Assembly: GCA_907163375.1 (NCBI GenBank)
Contig: CAJQUW010012901.1
Coordinates: forward strand, 1-64,000
Direction of reading: 5' to 3'
Source of the DNA: Prostheceraeus crozeri
Lineage: Eukaryota; Platyhelminthes; Polycladida; Euryleptidae
Length of the DNA: 64,000 nt
Position numbers and translations under genes: made by a program. Shown piece by piece: positions 25,205-37,259 of this stretch (position 1 is its first letter; every line of letters starts with the position of its first letter). A model generated the notes under the pieces. The model ran no database searches, was not told the origin of the DNA, and saw nothing but the letters and a program-made list of their open reading frames with translations.

Positions 25205-25574
25205 AATCGTTGTCTCTGATTTCTTTCTGATTCAACGCTGGTGAGGCAAACCAAACACAATTCAAGCGATAGTTCTCTATTGGCTCTGAGGCAAACTCGG
25301 CTGGTGAACTCATGATACTGTACATGTATACAAATTAATTATGTGAGTGACTCTCACTCCTGCTGTTGATGACTGAAATGTGGCTACTTAACGACGGTGA
25401 CCGGTGTGCAAAAATGCGGATGAAAAAAGAAAGTAAATGATACACGGAGTTTTTTGGTTTTGGTTGTGGTAGTCATAGCCTACCTACATATGGAAAAGAT
25501 AAAGCAGAACAATTATTTTTTTCAAATTCCACATCAATATTATTCGTTTTACATCAAATTCGCAACATGCAAAC

Positions 25575-25587
25575 ATATCAATATGTA
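25575..25587. repeat. Left 13-bp target-site duplication of the Penelope array
   Basis: ATATCAATATGTA occurs here and again at 36245-36257, immediately outside the outer ends of the five-copy array. The inner TGTA/TACA is shared with the element, so the true duplication is 9-13 bp. Confidence 0.85.
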
Positions 25588-28102
25588 CGCGAGGCTGCCC
25601 AAATTCATTTCACAAATGAAAAGTCGATGTGTCACGACCGGTTTCAGTCTATTTCAGACCATCTTCAGGTGTATGTACAGACATGGAAAAATCGACTTAT
25701 ATACTAAAATGATTAAAACTAAAGGAGAAGTGATCAGTAAAATTTCGTCGGTCACAGAAATTGCGAAGGTCACAGAAAGACCCTCAGCTTGTATGACGAA
25801 TCGTGTTCATTCAATGTTCTGTCAGTGCTATGGCAAAGTGCAATACTTTCAGCTATTTTCGTGTACTTGGTTTTGTAGATTATCGTAAAATCGTCAAAGT
25901 CCGCATTGTGCAGATGTTTAGAAATTTCAGTTTCATTAGGAATGCCGCGAATATGTTCTTTCATTCTAGTGTAGAGATGACGCTTAGTCTCACCAATATA
26001 GCTGCTTGAGCACAGCTTACAGGAAAATTTATAAACTACATCAGAGGAGAGACTAAACTTCAACCTGTCTTTGTTTGGAAAAAGGTTAGCAGTCTTAAGT
26101 GTTCTGTAAGAAACAACAATTTTATGATTCGCTGGAAGGAATTTGTTCAAACTATCAACAGTCTTTCTAGTTTGGCTCTCAAGACTTTTGACAAAAGGGA
26201 GGCGCCAGTATATGTTTTTAATATTACGATCGCTAGGTTGGAAATTGTCAACATTATTTTTATTTAATTCTATCGATTTGATCATTAGAGTAGCCATTGG
26301 CAATGAAAATACCTTTGATGACAGAGAAACTGCTTTCATAGGCATTTCGACTGCCACTTAAACGCTTAGCTCGAATAATCAAGGCGCGAATAGCCGAGGT
26401 TTTATAACGAACAGAGCATGAGCACTGTTTGGAATGTACAAACCAGTGTTAGTATCTTTTAAATGCCAATGATAATTCAGAGAATTAGCATTTTTAGTGA
26501 CCATGACATCAAGGAATTTCAATTGATTATTGACCTGTTCCTCACAAGTAAAACGAATGCTACTGTGAATATTGTTAAGAGAATGCAAAACCTTTTCAGC
26601 ATCCTTTTCGTCTCTATCGATTGCAAAAATATCATCAACATACCGACGATAGTACATGGGAAATCAATAATTTTGGACTCAATTAAATTCATCGCAAAAG
26701 AGGCCAGAGTTGGGCCGAGGATCGATCCCATGCCAACGCCTTCGATTTGATGGTATAGATTATCATTAAATTGGAACAACATATTTTTGCACGATAAATT
26801 TAGGAGGGAAATCAGGGTTCCTTTATCGACCGGAAAGCTGGTAAAATCAATTAGATTACAAATATGATTGAAAGTATCATCGAGAGGAATACTCGGAAAT
26901 AAGCTCACTACATCATACGAAACCATATAAAAATGGTCATGAGAAATATCTTTGATCGAATCAACGAATTCGAAGGAGTCTTTCAGCTCTAAAGAGCGAG
27001 GAATGTATGGTTTCAGAATTTGATTCAACCACCTACTTAGGCTAGTATTGTAGGCTTTTGGCATACTTAAAATAGGCCGTAAAGGCGGATCGGTACGCGA
27101 TTTGTGTATTTTAGGCAGGCCATAGAGCCTGGCTGGCTGACTACCAGTGCTTCTAACTTCACTATAAACACTTTCAGGAAGCTTGCCTTTTTTCTTTAAA
27201 TCAGACAGGCTACGGTTGAACCTCTCCTCCGCAATAATGAATTGACTTTTGTCTTTGGTAGACGGTTTCAAATTTTTGAATTTGCTACGATCACTTAGAA
27301 TTTCATGAATTTTATCATTATACTTGTGTTTATCCATAATACACACGCCGTTACCTTTGTCAAACTTGGTAACGTGAAGGTTTTTATTTTTCGCTAAAGT
27401 ACGGAGAGTTTTGATTTTATCAGTCAAGAACTTTTGGCGAGACTTGTCATTAATGTAAGTGTAAGCTAAAGACTTGAATTTGGAACGAACACGATCCTCA
27501 TCTTCCTTACTCAAACTTAGTTTCGCAACATTGTTGAAAACCACTTCAGTTTCTGTTTTTACATCAAGCGCATTGACCTTTTGAGGCCAGCACATGGATA
27601 AGCCCAAACTAAGAGCCTGGGTTTCTTCTAGACTGAGTTCATGACTGCTGATGTTGACGATGCCGCTACCATCCACATTTGAAGGTGAATTACACCGCCT
27701 TGTTCTGTTGATTAGATTTTGGAATTTCTTGTTATGTCGAATTGAGATTTGCTAGAGATTCTTCTTGTTGTAGTGTTGAATTATTGTGACCATACTTGTC
27801 CATGTTGCTTGATGCTGTTGCCGCAGTAGAGAGACTTGTTCTTGAAGATTTTCGCAGATTTGCCTTGCTGACTTGATCTCCTTCCTGAGCTCCTTGAGTT
27901 GAAATTTCTTGATATTGGAATTGAGACAGTTGAATCTCGAAGGAATTTTGAAGTACATAAACTTAGGGATCACTTCGTTATTAAGACACTTTTCTAAGAA
28001 CTGCAACCGTAGGAGACTAGTTTGGTGTTTCATCCATGGCTTCTGTGCAGACTTCACCTGAGCTAGCCAGCTTGGTTTCAGGGAGGACTTCAGTGAATTG
28101 TA
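25588..28102 (-). mobile_element. Penelope array copy A (outermost left, full length)
   Basis: This full unit is read right to left. Its 3' end runs ~48 bases past the predicted ribozyme cleavage point into the start of the next unit (CTGCCTCGCG-like) before the target duplication. It carries more point lesions than B. Confidence 0.9.
25623..25696 (-). ncRNA. Hammerhead-ribozyme-like motif, copy A 3' end
   Basis: The minus strand has CUGAAGA, the 5-bp stem II GGUCU/AGACU, GAAA, self-complementary ACCGGU and C, with predicted cleavage between 25636 and 25635. Stem I is CAC/GUG plus GUCGAU/AUCGAC. Stem III has no loop, so a dimer is the likely active form. Confidence 0.55.
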
Positions 28103-28150
28103 CGCGAGGCTGCCCAAATTCATTTCACAAATGAAAAGTCGATGTGTCAC
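25770..28150 (-). pseudogene. Penelope-like RT/endonuclease ORF, copy A (broken)
   Basis: The same protein as in copy B is broken in at least three places. A CTGGAG-to-CTAGAG change makes a stop at ~27752, after the N-terminal 132 codons. A one-base loss near 26657 breaks the frame just before the RT catalytic YRRYVDD. Another one-base loss near 26418 breaks it again. The RT motif-B segment has GVGMGS where the sister copies have GVAMGS. The GIY-YIG part (26357-25770) is intact, with CKLCSSSYIGETKRHLYTR. The breaks make this copy non-coding as a whole, although it can still be a template in trans. Confidence 0.85.
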
Positions 28151-28211
28151 GACCGGTTTCAGTCTATTTCAGACCATCTTCAGGTGTATGTACAGACATG
28201 GAAAAATCGAC
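28138..28211 (-). ncRNA. Hammerhead-ribozyme-like motif, junction of copies A and B
   Basis: The sequence is the same as in copy A, with cleavage predicted between 28151 and 28150. The A-copy frame opens at 28150. All core positions are kept. Confidence 0.57.
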
Positions 28212-28284
28212 TTATATACTAAAATGATTAAAACTAAAGAAGAAGTGATCAGTAAAATTTCGTCGGTCACAGAAATTGCGAAGG

Positions 28285-28872
28285 TCACAGAAAGACCCTC
28301 AGCTTGTATGACGAATCGTGTTCATTCAATGTTCTGTCAGTGCTATGGCAAAGTGCAATACTTTCAGCTATTTTCGTGTACTTGGTTTTGTAGATTATCG
28401 TAAAATCGTCAAAGTCCGCATTGTGCAGATGTTTAGAAATTTCAGTTTCATTAGGAATGCCGCGAATATGTTCTTTCATTCTAGTGTAGAGATGACGCTT
28501 AGTCTCACCAATATAGCTGCTTGAGCACAGCTTACAGGAAAATTTATAAACTACATCAGAGGAGAGACTAAACTTCAACCTGTCTTTGTTTGGAAAAAGG
28601 TTAGCAGTCTTAAGTGTTCTGTAAGAAACAATAATTTTATGATTCGCTGGAAGGAATTTGTTCAAACTATCAACAGTCTTTCTAGTTTGGCTCTCAAGAC
28701 TTTTGACAAAAGGGAGGCGCCAGTATATGTTTTTAATATTACGATCGCTAGGTTGGAAATTGTCAACATTATTTTTATTTAATTCTATCGATTTGATCAT
28801 TAGAGTAGCCATTGGCAATGAAAATACCTTTGATGACAGAGAAACTGCTTTCATAGGCATTTCGACTGCCAC
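28285..28872 (-). CDS. GIY-YIG endonuclease domain, copy B
   Basis: In the +1 frame relative to the RT, the meaningful part starts near SIELNKNNVDN at the RT stop. A linker with NIYWRLPFVKSLE and FPNKDRLKFSLSSDVVYKF leads to CKLC and the catalytic SSYIGETKRHLYTRMKEH. It finishes with conserved AESIALCHSTDRTLNEH and a stop at 28285. The GIY-YIG nuclease nicks target DNA for primed reverse transcription. In typical Penelope-like elements RT and GIY-YIG are one polypeptide. Here the join needs a frame change at ATT AAA TAA AAA, shared by A, B, C and D, so it is either a programmed +1 shift at the stop or a lesion of the source copy. The formal ATG lies upstream, in RT-coding sequence. Confidence 0.88.
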   Translation of the reverse strand: MAVEMPMKAVSLSSKVFSLPMATLMIKSIELNKNNVDNFQPSDRNIKNIYWRLPFVKSLESQTRKTVDSLNKFLPANHKIIVSYRTLKTANLFPNKDRLKFSLSSDVVYKFSCKLCSSSYIGETKRHLYTRMKEHIRGIPNETEISKHLHNADFDDFTIIYKTKYTKIAESIALCHSTDRTLNEHDSSYKLRVFL

Positions 28873-30667
28873 TTAAACGCTTAGCTCGAATAATCAAGGC
28901 GCGAATAGCCGAGGTTTTATAACGAACAGGAGCATGAGCACTGTTTGGAATGTACAAACCAGTGTTAGTATCTTTTAAATGCCAATGATAATTCAGAGAA
29001 TTAGCATTTTTAGTGACCATGACATCAAGGAATTTCAATTGATTATTGACCTGTTTCTCACAAGTAAAACGAATGCTACTGTGAATATTGTCAAGAGAAT
29101 GCAAAAACTTTTCAGCATCCTTTTCGTCTCTAACGATTGCAAAAATATCATCAACATACCGACGATAGTACATGGGGAAATCAATAATTTTGGACTCAAT
29201 TAAATTCATCGCAAAAGAGGCCAGAGTTGGGCCGAGGATCGATCCCATGGCAACGCCTTCGATTTGATGGTATAGATTATCATTAAATTGGAACAACATA
29301 TTTTTGCACGATAAATTTAGGAGGGAAATCAGGGTTCCTTTATCGACCGGAAAGCTGGTAAAATCAATTAGATTACAAATATGATTGAAAGTATCATCGA
29401 GAGGAATACTCGGAAATAAGCTCACTACATCATACGAAACCATATAAAAATGGTCATGAGAAATATCTTTGATCGAATCAACGAATTCGAAGGAGTCTTT
29501 CAGCTCTAAAGAGCGAGGAATGTATGGTTTCAGAATTTGATTCAACCACCTACTTAGGCTAGTATTGTAGGCTTTTGGCATACTTAAAATAGGCCGTAAA
29601 GGCGGATCGGTACGCGATTTGTGTATTTTAGGCAGGCCATAGAGCCTGGCTGGCTGACTACCAGTGCTTCTAACTTCACTATAAACACTTTCAGGAAGCT
29701 TGCCTTTTTTCTTTAAATCAGACAGGCTACGGTTGAACCTCTCCTCCGCAATAATGAATTGACTTTTGTCTTTGGTAGACGGTTTCAAATTTTTGAATTT
29801 GCTACGATCACTTAGAATTTCATGAATTTTATCATTATACTTGTGTTTATCCATAATACACACGCCGTTACCTTTGTCAAACTTGGTAACGTGAAGGTTT
29901 TTATTTTTCGCTAAAGTACGGAGAGTTTTGATTTTATCAGTCAAGAACTTTTGGCGAGACTTGTCATTAATGTAAGTGTAAGCTAAAGACTTGAATTTGG
30001 AACGAACACGATCCTCATCTTCCTTACTCAAACTTAGTTTCGCAACATTGTTGAAAACCACTTCAGTTTCTGTTTTTACATCAAGCGCATTGACCTTTTG
30101 AGGCCAGCACATGGATAAGCCCAAACTAAGAGCCTGGGTTTCTTCTAGACTGAGTTCATGACTGCTGATGTTGACGATGCCGCTACCATCCACATTTGAA
30201 GGTGAATTACACCGCCTTGTTCTGTTGATTAGATTTTGGAATTTCTTGTTATGTCGAATTGAGATTTGCTGGAGATTCTTCTTGTTGTAGTGTTGAATTA
30301 TTGTGACCATACTTGTCCATGTTGCTTGATGCTGTTGCCGCAGTAGAGAGACTTGTTCTTGAAGATTTTCGCAGATTTGCCTTGCTGACTTGATCTCCTT
30401 CCTGAGCTCCTTGAGTTGAAATTTCTTGATATTGGAATTGAGACAGTTGAATCTCGAAGGAATTTTGAAGTACATAAACTTAGGGATCACTTCGTTATTA
30501 AGACACTTTTCTAAGAACTGCAACCGTAGGAGACTAGTTTGGTGTTTCATCCATGGCTTCTGTGCAGACTTCACCTGAGCTAGCCAGCTTGGTTTCAGGG
30601 AGGACTTCAGTGAATTGTACGCGAGGCTGCCCAAATTCATTTCACAAATGAAAAGTCGATGTGTCAC
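28775..30667 (-). CDS. Penelope-like reverse transcriptase ORF, copy B
   Basis: The frame is open for 630 codons. It opens with GTG exactly at the predicted hammerhead cleavage point (30668/30667); the first ATG is the tenth codon (CEMNLGS), a more likely start. Order of parts: a coiled-coil-like N-terminal region (residues ~85-135), FDKGNGVCIMDKHKYNDK (~residue 265), GLPKIHKSRTDPPLRPI (~345), RT motif A VSYDVVSLFPSIPLDD (~425), motif B IEGVAMGSILGPTLASF (~490), and catalytic motif C YRRYVDDIFAI (~520). These match the RT of Penelope-like elements. The protein would copy element RNA onto nicked chromosomal DNA. It stops at TAA (QIDRIK*) while the endonuclease continues in the +1 frame, overlapping 28872-28775. 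Confidence 0.92.
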   Translation of the reverse strand: MTHRLFICEMNLGSLAYNSLKSSLKPSWLAQVKSAQKPWMKHQTSLLRLQFLEKCLNNEVIPKFMYFKIPSRFNCLNSNIKKFQLKELRKEIKSARQICENLQEQVSLLRQQHQATWTSMVTIIQHYNKKNLQQISIRHNKKFQNLINRTRRCNSPSNVDGSGIVNISSHELSLEETQALSLGLSMCWPQKVNALDVKTETEVVFNNVAKLSLSKEDEDRVRSKFKSLAYTYINDKSRQKFLTDKIKTLRTLAKNKNLHVTKFDKGNGVCIMDKHKYNDKIHEILSDRSKFKNLKPSTKDKSQFIIAEERFNRSLSDLKKKGKLPESVYSEVRSTGSQPARLYGLPKIHKSRTDPPLRPILSMPKAYNTSLSRWLNQILKPYIPRSLELKDSFEFVDSIKDISHDHFYMVSYDVVSLFPSIPLDDTFNHICNLIDFTSFPVDKGTLISLLNLSCKNMLFQFNDNLYHQIEGVAMGSILGPTLASFAMNLIESKIIDFPMYYRRYVDDIFAIVRDEKDAEKFLHSLDNIHSSIRFTCEKQVNNQLKFLDVMVTKNANSLNYHWHLKDTNTGLYIPNSAHAPVRYKTSAIRALIIRAKRLSGSRNAYESSFSVIKGIFIANGYSNDQIDRIK

Positions 30668-30728
30668 GACCGGTTTCAGTCTATTTCAGACCATCTTCAG
30701 GTGTATGTACAGACATGGAAAAATCGAC
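30655..30728 (-). ncRNA. Hammerhead-ribozyme-like motif, junction of copies B and C
   Basis: The sequence is the same as in the other minus-strand copies, with cleavage predicted between 30668 and 30667. The 630-codon B frame begins exactly at 30667. Confidence 0.57.
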
Positions 30729-30801
30729 TTATATACTAAAATGATTAAAACTAAAGGAGAAGTGATCAGTAAAATTTCGTCGGTCACAGAAATTGCGAAG
30801 G

Positions 30802-31816
30802 TCACAGAAAGACCCTCAGCTTGTATGACGAATCGTGTTCATTCAATGTTCTGTCAGTGCTATGGCAAAGTGCAATACTTTCAGCTATTTTCGTGTACTT
30901 GGTTTTGTAGATTATCGTAAAATCGTCAAAGTCCGCATTGTGCAGATGTTTAGAAATTTCAGTTTCATTAGGAATGCCGCGAATATGTTCTTTCATTCTA
31001 GTGTAGAGATGACGCTTAGTCTCACCAATATAGCTGCTTGAGCACAGCTTACAGGAAAATTTATAAACTACATCAGAGGAGAGACTAAACTTCAACCTGT
31101 CTTTGTTTGGAAAAAGGTTAGCAGTCTTAAGTGTTCTGTAAGAAACAATAATTTTATGATTCGCTGGAAGGAATTTGTTCAAACTATCAACAGTCTTTCT
31201 AGTTTGGCTCTCAAGACTTTTGACAAAAGGGAGGCGCCAGTATATGTTTTTAATATTACGATCGCTAGGTTGGAAATTGTCAACATTATTTTTATTTAAT
31301 TCTATCGATTTGATCATTAGAGTAGCCATTGGCAATGAAAATGCCTTTGATGACAGAGAAACTGCTTTCATAGGCATTTCGACTGCCACTTAAACGCTTA
31401 GCTCGAATAATCAAGGCGCGAATAGCCGAGGTTTTATAACGAACAGGAGCATGAGCACTGTTTGGAATGTACAAACCAGTGTTAGTATCTTTTAAATGCC
31501 AATGATAATTCAGAGAATTAGCATTTTTAGTGACCATGACATCAAGGAATTTCAATTGATTATTGACCTGTTTCTCACAAGTAAAACGAATGCTACTGTG
31601 AATATTGTTAAGAGAATGCAAAACCTTTTCAGCATCCTTTTCGTCTCTAACGATTGCAAAAATATCATCAACATACCGACGATAGTACATGGGGAAATCA
31701 ATAATTTTGGACTCAATTAAATTCATCGCAAAAGAGGCCAGAGTTGGGCCGAGGATCGATCCCATGGCAACGCCTTCGATTTGATGGTATAGATTATCAT
31801 TAAATTGGAACAACAT
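30802..31816 (-). pseudogene. Penelope-like RT (C-terminal) and GIY-YIG, copy C
   Basis: An RT frame (31816-31292) holds motifs B (GVAMGSILGP) and C (YRRYVDD). A +1-frame GIY-YIG ORF (31389-30802) follows, intact. The N-terminal half and RT motif A are missing through the truncation at 31919. The RT stop and frame change are the same as in copy B. As the frame lacks its start, no full protein is possible. Confidence 0.85.
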
Positions 31817-31925
31817 ATTTTTGCACGATAAATTTAGGAGGGAAATCAGGGTTCCTTTATCGACCGGAAAGCTGGTAAAATCAATTAGATTACAAATATG
31901 ATTGAAAGTATCATCGAGACTTTCA

Positions 31926-33564
31926 TCCGTACTTTAGCAAAAAATAAAAACCTTCACGTTACCAAGTTTGACAAAGGTAACGGCGTGTGTATTATGGATA
32001 AACACATGTATAATGATAAAATTCATGAAATTCTGAGTGATCGTAGCAAATTCAAAAATTTGAAACCGTCTACCAAAGACAAAAGTCAATTCATTATTGC
32101 GGAGGAGAGGTTCAACCGTAGCCTGTCTGATTTAAAGAAAAAAGGCAAGCTTCCTGAAAGTGTTTATAGTGAAGTTAGAAGCACTGGTAGTTCAGCCAGC
32201 CAGGCTCTATGGCCTGCCTAAAATACACAAATCGCGTACCGATCCGCCTTTACGGCCTATTTTAAGTATGCCAAAAGCCTACAATACTAGCCTAAGTAGG
32301 TGGTTGAATCAAATTCTGAAACCATACATTCCTCGCTCTTTAGAGCTGAAAGACTCCTTCGAATTCGTTGATTCGATCAAAGATATTTCTCATGACCATT
32401 TTTATATGGTTTCGTATGATGTAGTGAGCTTATTTCCGAGTATTCCTCTCGATGATACTTTCAATCATATTTGTAATCTAATTGATTTTACCAGCTTTCC
32501 GGTCGATAAAGGAACCCTGATTTCCCTCCTAAATTTATCGTGCAAAAATATGTTGTTCCAATTTAATGATAATCTATACCATCAAATCGAAGGCGTTGCC
32601 ATGGGATCGATCCTCGGCCCAACTCTGGCCTCTTTTGCGATGAATTTAATTGAGTCCAAAATTATTGATTTCCCCATGTACTATCGTCGGTATGTTGATG
32701 ATATTTTTGCAATCGTTAGAGACGAAAAGGATGCTGAAAAGGTTTTGCATTCTCTTAACAATATTCACAGTAGCATTCGTTTTACTTGTGAGGAACAGGT
32801 CAATAATCAATTGAAATTCCTTGATGTCATGGTCACTAAAAATGCTAATTCTCTGAATTATCATTGGCATTTAAAAGATACTAACACTGGTTTGTACATT
32901 CCAAACAGTGCTCATGCTCCTGTTCGTTATAAAACCTCGGCTATTCGCGCCTTGATTATTCGAGCTAAGCGTTTAAGTGGCAGTCGAAATGCCTATGAAA
33001 GCAGTTTCTCTGTCATCAAAGGTATTTTCATTGCCAATGGCTACTCTAATGATCAAATCGATAGAATTAAATAAAAATAATGTTGACAATTTCCACCCTA
33101 GCGATCGTAATATTAAAAACATATACTGGCGCCTCCCTTTTGTCAAAAGTCTTGAGAGCCAAACTAGAAAGACTGTTGATAGTTTGAACAAATTCCTTCC
33201 AGCGAATCATAAAATTATTGTTTCTTACAGAACACTTAAGACTGCTAACCTTTTTCCAAACAAAGACAGGTTGAAGTTTAGTCTCTCCTCTGATGTAGTT
33301 TATAAATTTTCCTGTAAGCTGTGCTCAAGCAGCTATATTGGTGAGACTAAGCGTCATCTCTACACTAGAATGAAAGAACATATTCGCGGCATTCCTAATG
33401 AAACTGAAATTTCTAAACATCTGCACAATGCGGACTTTGACGATTTTACGATAATCTACAAAACCAAGTACACGAAAATAGCTGAAAGTATTGCACTTTG
33501 CCATAGCACTGACAGAACATTGAATGAACACGATTCGTCATACAAGCTGAGGGTCTTTCTGTGA
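31926..33564 (+). pseudogene. Penelope-like RT and GIY-YIG, copy D (broken)
   Basis: The N-terminal part is cut at the centre of the mirror. A single inserted T (GGTAGTTCAGCC near 32190) shifts the frame between LPESVYSEV and the GLPKIHK motif, giving frames 31898-32221 and 32160-33074. The second runs from ARLYGLPKIHK through YRRYVDD to the standard RT stop at 33074. The GIY-YIG ORF (32977-33564) is open and carries a change, NFHPSDR for NFQPSDR. The copy could code for endonuclease only. Confidence 0.85.
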
Positions 33565-33637
33565 CCTTCGCAATTTCTGTGACCGACGAAATTTTACTGA
33601 TCACTTCTCCTTTAGTTTTAATCATTTTAGTATATAA

Positions 33638-33710
33638 GTCGATTTTCCATGTCTGTACATACACCTGAAGATGGTCTGAAATAGACTGAAACCGGTCGTG
33701 ACACATCGAC
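33638..33710 (+). ncRNA. Hammerhead-ribozyme-like motif, junction of copies D and E
   Basis: CUGAAGA lies at 33665-33671, GAAA at 33688-33691 and the ACCGGU-C block ends at 33697, giving predicted cleavage at 33697/33698. Stem I outer pairs are GUCGAU 33638-33643 and AUCGAC 33705-33710. One T fewer lies in the stem I loop side than in the other copies. Confidence 0.57.
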
Positions 33711-36083
33711 TTTTCATTTGTGAAATGAATTTGGGCAGCCTCGCGTACAATTCACTGAAGTCCTCCCTGAAACCAAGCTGGTTAGCTCAGGTGAAGTCTG
33801 CACAGAAGCCATGGATGAAACACCAAACTAGTCTCCTACGGTTGCAGTTCTTAGAAAAGTGTCTTAATAACGAAGTGATCCCTAAGTTTATGTACTTCAA
33901 AATTCCTTCGAGATTCAACTGTCTCAATTCCAATATCAAGAAATTTCAACTCAAGGAGCTCAGGAAGGAGATCAAGTCAGCAAGGCAAATCTGCGAAAAT
34001 CTTCAAGAACAAGTCTCTCTACTGCGGCAACAGCATCAAGCAACATGGACAAGTATGGTCACAATAATTCAACACTACAACAAGAAGAATCTCCAGCAAA
34101 TCTCAATTCGACATAACAAGAAATTCCAAAATCTAATCAACAGAACAAGGCGGTGTAATTCACCTTCAAATGTGGATGGTAGCGGCATCGTCAACATCAG
34201 CAGTCATGAACTCAGTCTAGAAGAAACCCAGGCTCTTAGTTTGGGCTTATCCATGTGCTGGCCTCAAAAGGTCAATGCGCTTGATGTAAAAACAGAAACT
34301 GAAGTGGTTTTCAACAATGTTGCGAAACTAAGTTTGAGTAAGGAAGATGAGGATCGTGTTCGTTCCAAATTCAAGTCTTTAGCTTACACTTACATTAATG
34401 ACAAGTCTCGCCAAAAGTTCTTGACTGATAAAATCAAAACTCTCCGTACTTTAGCGAAAAAAAAACCTTCACGTTACCAAGTTTGACAAAGGTAACGGCG
34501 TGTGTATTATGGATAAACACAAGTATAATGATAAAATTCATGAAATTCTAAGTGATCGTAGCAAATTCAAAAAATTGAAACAGTCTACCAAAGACAAAAT
34601 TCAATTCATTTATTGCGGAGGAGAGGTTCAACCGTAGCCTGTCTGATTTAAAGAAAAAAGGCAAGCTTCCTGAAAGTGTTTATAGTGAAGTTAGAAGCAC
34701 TGGTAGTCAGCCAGCCAGGCTCTATGGCCTGCCTAAAATACACAAATCGCGTACCGATCCGCCTTTACGGCCTATTTTAAGTATGCCAAAAGCCTACAAT
34801 ACTAGCCTAAGTAGGTGGTTGAATCAAATTCTGAAACCATACATTCCTCGCTCTTTAGAGCTGAAAGACTCCTTCGAATTCGTTGATTCGATCAAAGATA
34901 TTTCTCATGACCATTTTTTATATGGTTTCGTATGATGTAGTGAGCTTATTTCCGAGTATTCCTCTCGATGATACTTTCAATCATATTTGTAATCTAATTG
35001 ATTTTACCAGCTTTCCGGTCGATAAAGGAACCCTGATTTCCCTCCTAAATTTATCGTGCAAAAATATGTTGTTCCAATTTAATGATAATCTATACCATCA
35101 AATCGAAGGCGTTGCCATGGGATCGATCCTCGGCCCAACTCTGGCCTCTTTTGCGATGAATTTAATTGAGTCCAAAATTATTGATTTCCCCATGTACTAT
35201 CGTCGGTATGTTGATGATATTTTTGCAATCGTTAGAGACGAAAAGGATGCTGAAAAGTTTTTGCATTCTCTTAACAATATTCACAGTAGCATTCGTTTTA
35301 CTTGTGAGGAACAGGTCAATAATCAATTGAAATTCCTTGATGTCATGGTCACTAAAAATGCTAATTCTCTGAATTATCATTGGCATTTAAAAGATACTAA
35401 CACTGGTTTTGTACATTCCAAACAGTGCTCATGCTCCTGTTCGTTATAAAACCTCGGCTATTCGCGCCTTGATTATTCGAGCTAAGCGTTTAAGTGGCAG
35501 TCGAAATGCCTATGAAAGCAGTTTTTCTCTGTCATCAAAGGTATTTTCATTGCCAATGGCTACTCTAATGATCAAATCGATAGAATTAAATAAAAATAAT
35601 GTTGACAATTTCCAACCTAGCGATCGTAATATTAAAAACATATACTGGCGCCTCCCTTTTGTCAAAAGTCTTGAGAGCCAAACTAGAAAGACTGTTGATA
35701 GTTTGAACAAATTCCTTCCAGCGAATCATAAAATTATTGTTTCTTACAGAACACTTAAGACTGCTAACCTTTTTCCAAACAAAGACAGGTTGAAGTTTAG
35801 TCTCTCCTCTGATGTAGTTTATAAATTTTCCTGTAAGCTGTGCTCAAGCAGCTATATTGGTGAGACTAAGCGTCATCTCTACACTAGAATGAAAGAACAT
35901 ATTCGCGGCATTCCTAATGAAACTGAAATTTCTAAACATCTGCACAATGCGGACTTTGACGATTTTACGATAATCTACAAAACCAAGTACACGAAAATAG
36001 CTGAAAGTATTGCACTTTGCCATAGCACTGACAGAACATTGAATGAACACGATTCGTCATACAAGCTGAGGGTCTTTCTGTGA
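33698..36083 (+). pseudogene. Penelope-like RT/endonuclease ORF, copy E (broken)
   Basis: The N-terminal 262 codons are open from the GTG at the cleavage point (33698), then the frame is lost in an A run (GCGAAAAAAAAACC near 34460). Further length changes occur near 34610 (ATTCATTTATTG), 34915 (extra T before ATATGG), 35409 (extra T in GGTTTTGTAC) and 35523 (two extra T). The last of these joins RT and GIY-YIG into one frame (35409-36083), the only copy where the junction is open. Nearly all changes are in A or T runs. They may be real decay, or uncorrected long-read errors in a repeat where short reads do not map uniquely. RT motifs A-C (34910-35260) and GIY-YIG are otherwise as in copy B. 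Confidence 0.85.
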
Positions 36084-36244
36084 CCTTCGCAATTTCTGTG
36101 ACCGACGAAATTTTACTGATCACTTCTCCTTTAGTTTTAATCATTTTAGTATATAAGTCGATTTTTCCATGTCTGTACATACACCTGAAGATGGTCTGAA
36201 ATAGACTGAAACCGGTCGTAACACATCGACTTTTCATTTGTGAA
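33746..36244 (+). mobile_element. Penelope array copy E (outermost right, full length)
   Basis: This full unit is in plus orientation. Its 3' end lies only ~27 bases past the ribozyme cleavage point, before the right target duplication. It has more homopolymer-length differences than any other copy. Confidence 0.9.
36157..36230 (+). ncRNA. Hammerhead-ribozyme-like motif, copy E 3' end
   Basis: CUGAAGA lies at 36185-36191, GAAA at 36208-36211 and cleavage is predicted at 36217/36218. It differs from the other copies by CGTAAC in place of CGTGAC after the cleavage point, which spoils the third pair of inner stem I (C-A). Confidence 0.52.
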
Positions 36245-36257
36245 ATATCAATATGTA
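36245..36257. repeat. Right 13-bp target-site duplication of the Penelope array
   Basis: ATATCAATATGTA is identical to 25575-25587. Flanking bases differ (C before it on the left, A on the right), so the match ends at 13. Confidence 0.85.
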
Positions 36258-37259
36258 ATTCAATGAAAGATTGAACAGAGATTACAGCGAAAAATAATGT
36301 GTCTACTTGGTTTATGCTTTTAAAATGCTTTTGCAATTACGTTGACATATAGGTTACATGCACGAATATTTACCAAAATTCAAATTCTGTCATAGGCCTC
36401 TCAAACTATTATTTATTGGTGTAGTGATTCATTGAATTGCCGCTTTATCAGATATTTCATATGGAATAACCACCAACAGCCCTAGATGACGTGATTATCA
36501 TGAATATACCATTATATTCCAAATAATAGATAGGCTATGAGTTATGTATCACACGTGCCCTTCGTAAAAATTTAGAACGATAATTTTTGAAATCTCTACT
36601 TTTTCGAATCACTACTCGTTCTATGACTTTGACATGAAAATGGTTTGCAATTAGCAAGTTAGTGAAATTTCGACGGGCAGTCATAAAATACTATTTAATA
36701 CACTACTGGCAAATCGCCTAAGTTAGTGCGCCTGCAATAATTGATAAATGCTGCCTTTTACAAACACTATGTAAATAGGATAATTAAAAACTAGGCCTGT
36801 TGATGATTCCTAATATTGGATGAAATGGCAGCTATTCAGGACTGTTCCTATTTTTCAACTGAGGATGGAACTCAATATTTAATTCTCTTTACATGAAAAT
36901 GGTTGTCGATTGAAACGGGCGAGTCATTGGTGAATTTCGGAGCAGCTAAGTATTTCTGTTACGGATGCTAATATTTCTTTCTGTTTTTGAGATTTGAAGG
37001 CCGCATCAAAATTCTTGTTACATCAATATTCTCTGTACCACAAGCCTCTCATAGGATGTCTCGTTCATGAGTAGAAGCTAAAATGAACATGCTTAGTAAT
37101 GCTTAATAATTTCCAATCACTGACTCAACAGTCCTAAAAGTCATTCAAACCCTTGCAAGTAGGGCACTCGCGAAGCAGGTAATTCTTGTCACATGGAGAC
37201 GGCACCATGTTCATATGCGATGTAATCAGTAAAAATGTGAATTCAATACAACATTCTTT
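36258..37259. other. Intron stretch without recognised genes
   Basis: This is AT-rich DNA between the Penelope array and the second Penelope-like element. No coding or repeat signal is seen. Confidence 0.5.

Follow-up and report, generated by a model that had tools for sequence, protein, structure and literature searches.

Mirror-image insertions of a Penelope-like element in Prostheceraeus crozeri pair one long with one short outer end and are very likely primed from both sides of a staggered break

Head-to-head, outward-facing insertion is the commonest form among the resolved insertions of a Penelope-like element (PLE) family in Prostheceraeus crozeri, and in 28 of 30 two-ended mirror insertions one outer end is long and tailed (L) and the other short and tail-less (S); two L ends were found in none of the 30. 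We consider it very likely that such insertions are made by double target-primed reverse transcription from a staggered break, with one strand primed at S and the other at L, followed by end joining. The sequences hold a single target-site duplication (TSD), outward 3' ends, the L/S pairing, private variants shared by the two arms, and filler or microhomology at the centre.

In the window (the whole stretch of DNA that was analysed, 64 kb), a 2517-bp unit is present in five copies at 25585-36246 (contig C10706), with all element 3' ends facing outward (Table 1). Alignment to the unit bore out the mirror-image layout described in the first-pass annotation, and copies A, C, D and E are 99.4-99.7% identical to copy B. 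The head-to-tail unit junctions are seamless, and BLAST found no further unit copies in the window. An exact-match search of the 64 kb agreed that the 13-mer ATATCAATATGTA occurs once on each side (25575 and 36245) and never between copies; its reverse complement is absent from the 64-kb window. By exact match, 4 nt of microhomology are seen at the left TSD/element junction and 2 nt at the right. The 6-bp filler reported at the joined inner ends was likewise confirmed in the sequence. Both outer ends are element 3' ends, as had been proposed, but their end points differ, with A extending to unit 2517/2518 and E to 2495, so that A carries the L end and E the S end.

Table 1. Positions of the features of the array and its target in the window.
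Feature	Position	Strand	Remarks
Target repeat, left part	25461-25587	+	old dispersed repeat of ~330 bp
Left TSD, 13 bp	25575-25587	+	terminal GTA common to TSD and element end
Copy A	25585-28099	-	full unit; outer end is the L (tailed) 3' end, unit 2517/2518
Copy B	28100-30616	-	full 2517-bp unit; reference for comparisons
Copy C	30617-31919	-	unit 1215-2517, 5'-truncated; inner end of left arm
Central filler CTTTCA, 6 bp	31920-31925		joins C and D
Copy D	31926-33748	+	unit 695-2517, 5'-truncated; inner end of right arm
Hammerhead-like core in copy D, CTGAAGA-stem II-GAAA-CCGGTC	33665-33697	+	by eye
First in-frame ATG of the RT ORF	33725-33727	+	unit 2494-2496; same as S start position
Copy E	33749-36246	+	unit 1-2495; outer end is the S (tail-less) 3' end
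Right TSD, 13 bp	36245-36257	+	
Target repeat, right part	36258-36460	+	continuation of the ~330-bp repeat

The joined flanks of the array match at least 38 longer paralogs at 74-85% identity, mostly over query 187-516 (a lower bound, since only the best candidates were scored), and in 36 of these 38 listed matches one continuous alignment covers the junction. All seven aligned paralogs are uninterrupted by the element and contain a single 13-mer region, which varies among them by some substitutions and one 8-bp insertion. The empty-site check proposed earlier thus succeeded for paralogs (7/7 without insert) but not for alleles: in an assembly search, no empty haplotype was found and the joined flanks matched at 100% only the window itself. 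Since the paralogs read across the site without the element, the 13-mer is a genuine duplication of the target; identity over 13 bases at two predefined junctions, together with the uninterrupted paralogs, argues against a chance match. The sequence GTAATTCAATGAAAG in the right flank was considered as an old element end and rejected, as it belongs to the target repeat. Most simply, the 10.7-kb array would have entered as one insertion, as first supposed, and this is supported by the one TSD outside the array, the paralogous empty sites and the insertion-private variants present in both arms.

On its predicted domains and anatomy, the unit is assigned to the endonuclease-containing PLEs. In copy B, the Pfam model RVT_1, a general RT model that is not specific to PLEs, scored 35.2 bits (E 1.3e-08, cut-off 29.6), and GIY-YIG, the C-terminal endonuclease, scored 23.1 bits, barely above its cut-off of 22.6. 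The two domains are in different reading frames, which overlap near unit 1745-1839. When copy B is doubled, the RT ORF continues across the unit junction, and the unit is without internal boundary. Tandem and partial tandem copies forming pLTRs occur in the window and in other arrays, and a TSD with an inverted copy and a tail at one end, also typical of PLEs, characterizes 28 of the 30 two-ended mirror insertions.

The assembly (2.05 Gb, 14,165 contigs) was searched with a 38-mer around the hammerhead-like core, which gave 205 genome sites at up to 2 mismatches and none with the reversed control. The first 100 of the 205 sites were listed, all of them exact matches, and more loci were taken from the best 40 of 317 candidates. 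Among the 100 listed sites, opposite-strand neighbours within 15 kb (a limit of our choosing) formed 19 outward pairs and no inward pair; beyond 15 kb, C571 has two neighbour pairs, an outward one at 17.6 kb and an inward one at 60 kb. The first-pass annotation had seen in the window array a very clear snapshot of the mechanism. It is no rare one: the mirror insertion is the usual mode among resolved insertions of the family, and the array is a new, long, ordinary but clean product of the known head-to-head kind.

In thirty mirror insertions each of the outer ends lies near unit 2494 or near 2517. Arm length ranges from 31 bp (C2349) to several units (window, C2540, C7567, C7570), and 11 of the 28 L/S inserts are shorter than 1 kb. 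Other products were also found. At least four single-arm insertions have a TSD, one ending in L (C1169) and three in S (C6867, C9732 and C5286, the last with extra bases). At five loci an L end is paired with an outer end at another unit position (2260 in C3462, 2469 in C1330, 2430 in C9576, 1098 in C6782 and 505 in C14154, where the second arm is a 25-bp match); a TSD was recognised in only two of them, an exact one of 13 bp at C3462 and, by eye, one of 12 bp at C1330. Two arrays run in one direction, C1869 with 6 core sites and C8402 with 18. Given these single-arm loci, L-plus-other loci and one-direction arrays, the two-ended reaction is usual and not obligatory. The five L-plus-other loci are outside the 28, as are C1822 and C6026, which belong to the 30. 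Left out altogether were C12720, C7432 and C571 (three sites, apparently duplicates of C7999) and the unresolved C8854; C169/C2078 (one locus twice) and C9018 (the same insertion as C2296) as repeats; the four single-arm loci with TSD; C1971, C2832, C3163, C5724, C7600, C8255 and C9541, with one arm and no clear TSD; and the two one-direction arrays. The repeats L059/L066 (C169/C2078) and L067/L101 (C2296/C9018) are each one insertion on two contigs, and the assembly seems to keep some haplotype duplicates. In C8402, the 18 core sites (5412-48162) are about 2.5 kb apart in a satellite-like arrangement, with units sharing variants in patches.

It can be seen that the two outer ends fall at two narrow positions. 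The S end lies near unit 2494, at the first ATG of the ORF; by exact match it falls at 2477-2502, with 25 of 28 at 2491-2502 and the remaining three showing changes near the end (the altered short end of C9638 was scored by eye). The L end lies at unit 2512-2526, 10-49 nt and usually about 22 nt beyond the S end. Independent ends would give at least 28 L/S pairs in 30 with a one-sided p of 4e-7. We take the 34-bp extension of Drosophila virilis Penelope to be the same tail. The exceptions are C1822 and C6026; each has S at both outer ends, with its flanks inverted, and resembles a fold-back of the locus or a (chimeric-read) assembly artefact. At both (L041, C1822:285350-287350; L046, C6026:322100-325150) element plus flanks form an inverted palindrome with no direct TSD.

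The same pairing was seen by eye in a second family, in 5 of 5 mirror insertions (L108, L110, L113, L114 and L115, on C6715, C14126, C8485, C8076 and C3127 respectively; L110 and L111 represent the same insertion and were counted once). One arm ends at or just before ATTGCATCA and the other is about 20-30 nt longer; an ATG lies at the short-end point, where the ORF start is putative. This family is diverged and much older, and is putatively Penelope-like by its core motif CTGAAGA..CGAAACGTCG. A first motif guess for other families found no sites; the second gave 68 sites, with 10 for the reversed control. Close opposite-strand pairs in the 68-site list comprise five outward (C6430, C6715, C11880 and C14126 twice) and one inward, at C4564, where the sites at 139817 (+) and 149475 (-) are 9.7 kb apart and probably represent two separate insertions. 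L107 and L109 (C6430 and C11880) have a third motif type, are apparently one insertion present twice, and stand outside the L/S scoring.

The TSDs reveal the geometry of the break. They are exact in 23 of the 28 L/S insertions, with a length of 12 bp in 11 cases, 13 bp in nine, 14 bp in two and 11 bp in one; C2296 and C3808 have 1 mismatch, C538 and C1266 have 2, and C8153 has no clear TSD (that of C4422 was scored by eye). When the 23 exact-TSD insertions were oriented with the L end on the left, the nicks on both strands tended to fall directly 5' of RTT. On the L side, T was present at +1 and +2 in 15/23 and 15/23 and a purine at 0 in 19/23; on the S side the corresponding counts were 17/23, 19/23 and 19/23. 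This preference agrees with that of the Anolis enzyme for ATT targets (PMC11167929). On each side the TSD adjoins the start of the cDNA, as 3' overhangs would give.

No order of priming was assigned to the two ends, as the three indications disagree. The S arm is the longer in 17 of 27 insertions (by eye, C7999 left out as complex; p = 0.25). A is present at +6 in 21/23 S-side nicks versus 14/23 L-side nicks (p = 0.035, uncorrected and for one of many positions). Where the second end is non-canonical, the other, canonical one is L at all five loci (p = 0.06).

Judged from the variants that they carry, the two arms of an insertion probably copy one source. Six SNPs are common in the family; at these, 69 of 72 comparisons between the arms of one insertion were concordant, and left and right arms of different insertions are discordant in 22.5% (380/1688). 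In addition, 23 variants are common to both arms of one insertion and present in no other of the 28 (a rule without independent null), among them three in the window (unit 501, 1510 and 1561), three in C2540 and two in C7672. Variants found in one arm only number 100 (61 left, 39 right), with 27 of them in the indel-rich C3105, and would be explained by mutation after insertion and by sequence errors. Palindromic arms could also undergo gene conversion, which would add to the sharing.

Multimeric arms imply a template longer than one unit, either a tandem transcript or a circle. The window has the multi-unit arms that had been described, of 2.5 and 1.7 units, but their number of units could have been altered after insertion through unequal exchange. 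The window units differ by 3-10 substitutions per pair, mostly private to one unit, and all four combinations are seen at sites 1510 and 1561, which requires conversion, recurrent change or a mixed template. In C1869, C7567 and C2540 the units are nearly identical (0-2 differences per compared pair) and lie between TSDs, exact in C7567 and C2540 and seen by eye in C1869; this indicates that multimers form at or near insertion. A circular template would suit the identical units of these three loci. A tandem transcript would suit the mixed units of the window, where A and D could be one template unit.

Centres with filler or microhomology are the typical look of error-prone end joining. Twenty-six centres were read (C7999 and C8395 are outside this number), and they comprise 15 with filler of 1-51 bp, 10 with microhomology of 1-12 bp and one blunt joint; they look like products of error-prone end joining. 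In the window, a 7-mer at 31903 recurs inverted 16 bp away as ACTTTCA (31919), and the filler looks like the result of templated snap-back.

From these data, the following course of events may be proposed. A Penelope-like RNP would cut both strands of AT-rich DNA 12-13 nt apart, giving 3' overhangs, and both 3' ends would prime reverse transcription on element RNA from one source, one end starting at S (unit ~2494, the first ATG) and the other at L, about 22 nt further 3'. Each cDNA would then extend a variable distance toward the RNA 5' end on a tandem or circular template; in the window the L start would have yielded the 2.5 units of A-B-C and the S start the 1.7 units of E-D. Host end joining would unite the two unfinished cDNAs, in the window with the 6-bp filler, and gap filling would produce the 13-bp duplication. 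We infer the order of these events, the holding of both sites by a single RNA-protein complex, the pathway of end joining and the kind of template. Priming from both 3' ends followed by end joining, as the first-pass annotation had suggested, is supported by the filler centre and by 27 further insertions of like anatomy. Counted against double priming are the lack of an allelic empty site in the assembly, the 100 one-arm variants, the differences among the window units, the two S/S cases in 30, the five L-plus-other loci and the single-arm insertions, at least four in number. A stricter reading, which we hold tentatively and at slightly less than even confidence, is that insertion of endonuclease-containing PLEs is a concerted two-ended reaction. 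A single RNP, which would probably be a dimer bound to one RNA or to RNAs from the same source, would present two fixed start sites next to each other and assign S to one of the 3' ends and L to its partner; a proper two-ended insertion would then always have one tailed and one tail-less end. If true, the normal product of a PLE would be a double-strand-break-like double target-primed reverse transcription resolved by end joining, with multimers as a by-product.

A cDNA or antisense template might instead fold and prime its own second strand to give an inverted repeat, as was suggested for Adineta Penelope from head-to-head repeats whose inverted junctions carry palindromes (PMC3846280). Such a fold-back predicts equal outer ends, inverted flanks and a simple loop. 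The outer ends are unequal in the window and in 27 other insertions; the flanks are direct TSDs (of the 28, 23 exact, four with 1-2 mismatches and one unclear); and the inner ends of the arms lie at unrelated points, mostly with filler. Only C1822 and C6026 of the 30, with their two S ends and inverted flanks, match the expectation, and as the origin of the window array a fold-back is extremely unlikely. The same two contigs look artefactual, and homopolymer indels in several copies and haplotig duplicates are present, which would suit an assembly or read artefact joining separate insertions or fold-back chimeric reads into one array. We regard this as most improbable in view of the like anatomy at 28 loci, with 11 inserts below 1 kb and thus easily spanned, the direct TSDs and the paralogous empty site.

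The possibility that a small double-primed insert was enlarged by unequal exchange, or that copies inserted into copies, draws on C8402, where 18 core sites point one way and five compared loci share variants in patches as is typical of exchange, and on the differences among the window units. It is unlikely, since the array lacks internal TSDs, its unit junctions are seamless, both arms share private variants, and near-identical units occur between TSDs elsewhere (C1869, C7567 and C2540). Twin priming is known from L1: both nick ends prime, the second at an internal and variable point of the RNA, and the arms do not overlap, their 5' ends being joined with microhomology or filler. A corresponding event, with one target-primed cDNA and an internal second priming on the same RNA, would account for centres that resemble those of L1 and for the five loci where L is paired with a different unit position. 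In contrast to L1, the arms here start at most about 22-30 nt apart on the RNA; the second start is fixed at S in 28 of the 30 insertions rather than at a random internal point, and the arms overlap on the same template sequence in 27 of 28. Twin priming of the L1 type is therefore very unlikely. Double priming at S and L remains our preferred explanation.

Comparatively little is known of PLE transposition (PMC11167929). The closest parallel is the Penelope/Poseidon element PAc of Anolis carolinensis, which likewise has GIY-YIG and RT, tandem genomic copies and AT-rich targets. The purified PAc enzyme cuts and extends both strands in vitro, and reverse transcription starts at two adjacent internal RNA sites whose interval corresponds to the genomic tail. 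PAc most often starts 111-118 nt inside the ORF, unlike the element described here, with its starts at the ATG and 19-32 nt beyond. In the portion of that paper available, the strand-specific assay reads each strand alone, no difference in start site between strands is reported, and whether a single event combines both starts is unaddressed; such an assay would not reveal the use of one start of each kind per event (PMC11167929). In Adineta vaga, Penelope inserts are completed by an inverted pLTR, head-to-head arrangement is the most frequent, TSDs are 8-10 bp, partial tandems occur, and a 31-bp tail is optional on one inverted pLTR; from few copies, the authors favoured self-priming on antisense RNA (PMC3846280). 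That tail is called optional, whereas exactly one end is tailed in 28 of 30 insertions here. Head-to-head PLEs, TSDs, partial tandems and the optional tail (PMC3846280) as well as two start sites (PMC11167929) are already published. The pairing of a tailed with a tail-less end as a rule was not found in the literature searched, whose scope did not extend to key older papers; the available part of PMC12910113 contained nothing on structure. What some thirty young insertions with readable ends add is that they favour two-ended priming over fold-back and show a stagger of 12-13 nt as well as a preference for cleavage at RTT on both sides. They also suggest that each insertion uses the two start sites known in vitro once each. 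The L/S pairing would place a sharp constraint on how the RNP holds RNA and DNA.

The hammerhead-like core was recognised by eye from the layout of the motif. Its 3' part is present in all five copies, near the unit 3' end, and in the second family stem II differs in a paired fashion (by eye). Rfam returned no hammerhead at the gathering score, nor did 33600-33800 give one at E<=10. Hammerheads of PLEs have been reported as a minimal type without helix III (PMC6155905). Retrozymes also carry hammerhead motifs in terminal repeats, and circular RNA is a possible template of their tandem copies, as it is a candidate template here; unlike the present RT/GIY-YIG element, they are non-autonomous. 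At the position of the would-be stem III lies the palindrome ACCGGT, within ACCGGTC at unit 2460-2466 (e.g. 33691-33697). It is possible that ACCGGT pairs two RNA copies or two units and might thereby hold two templates together.
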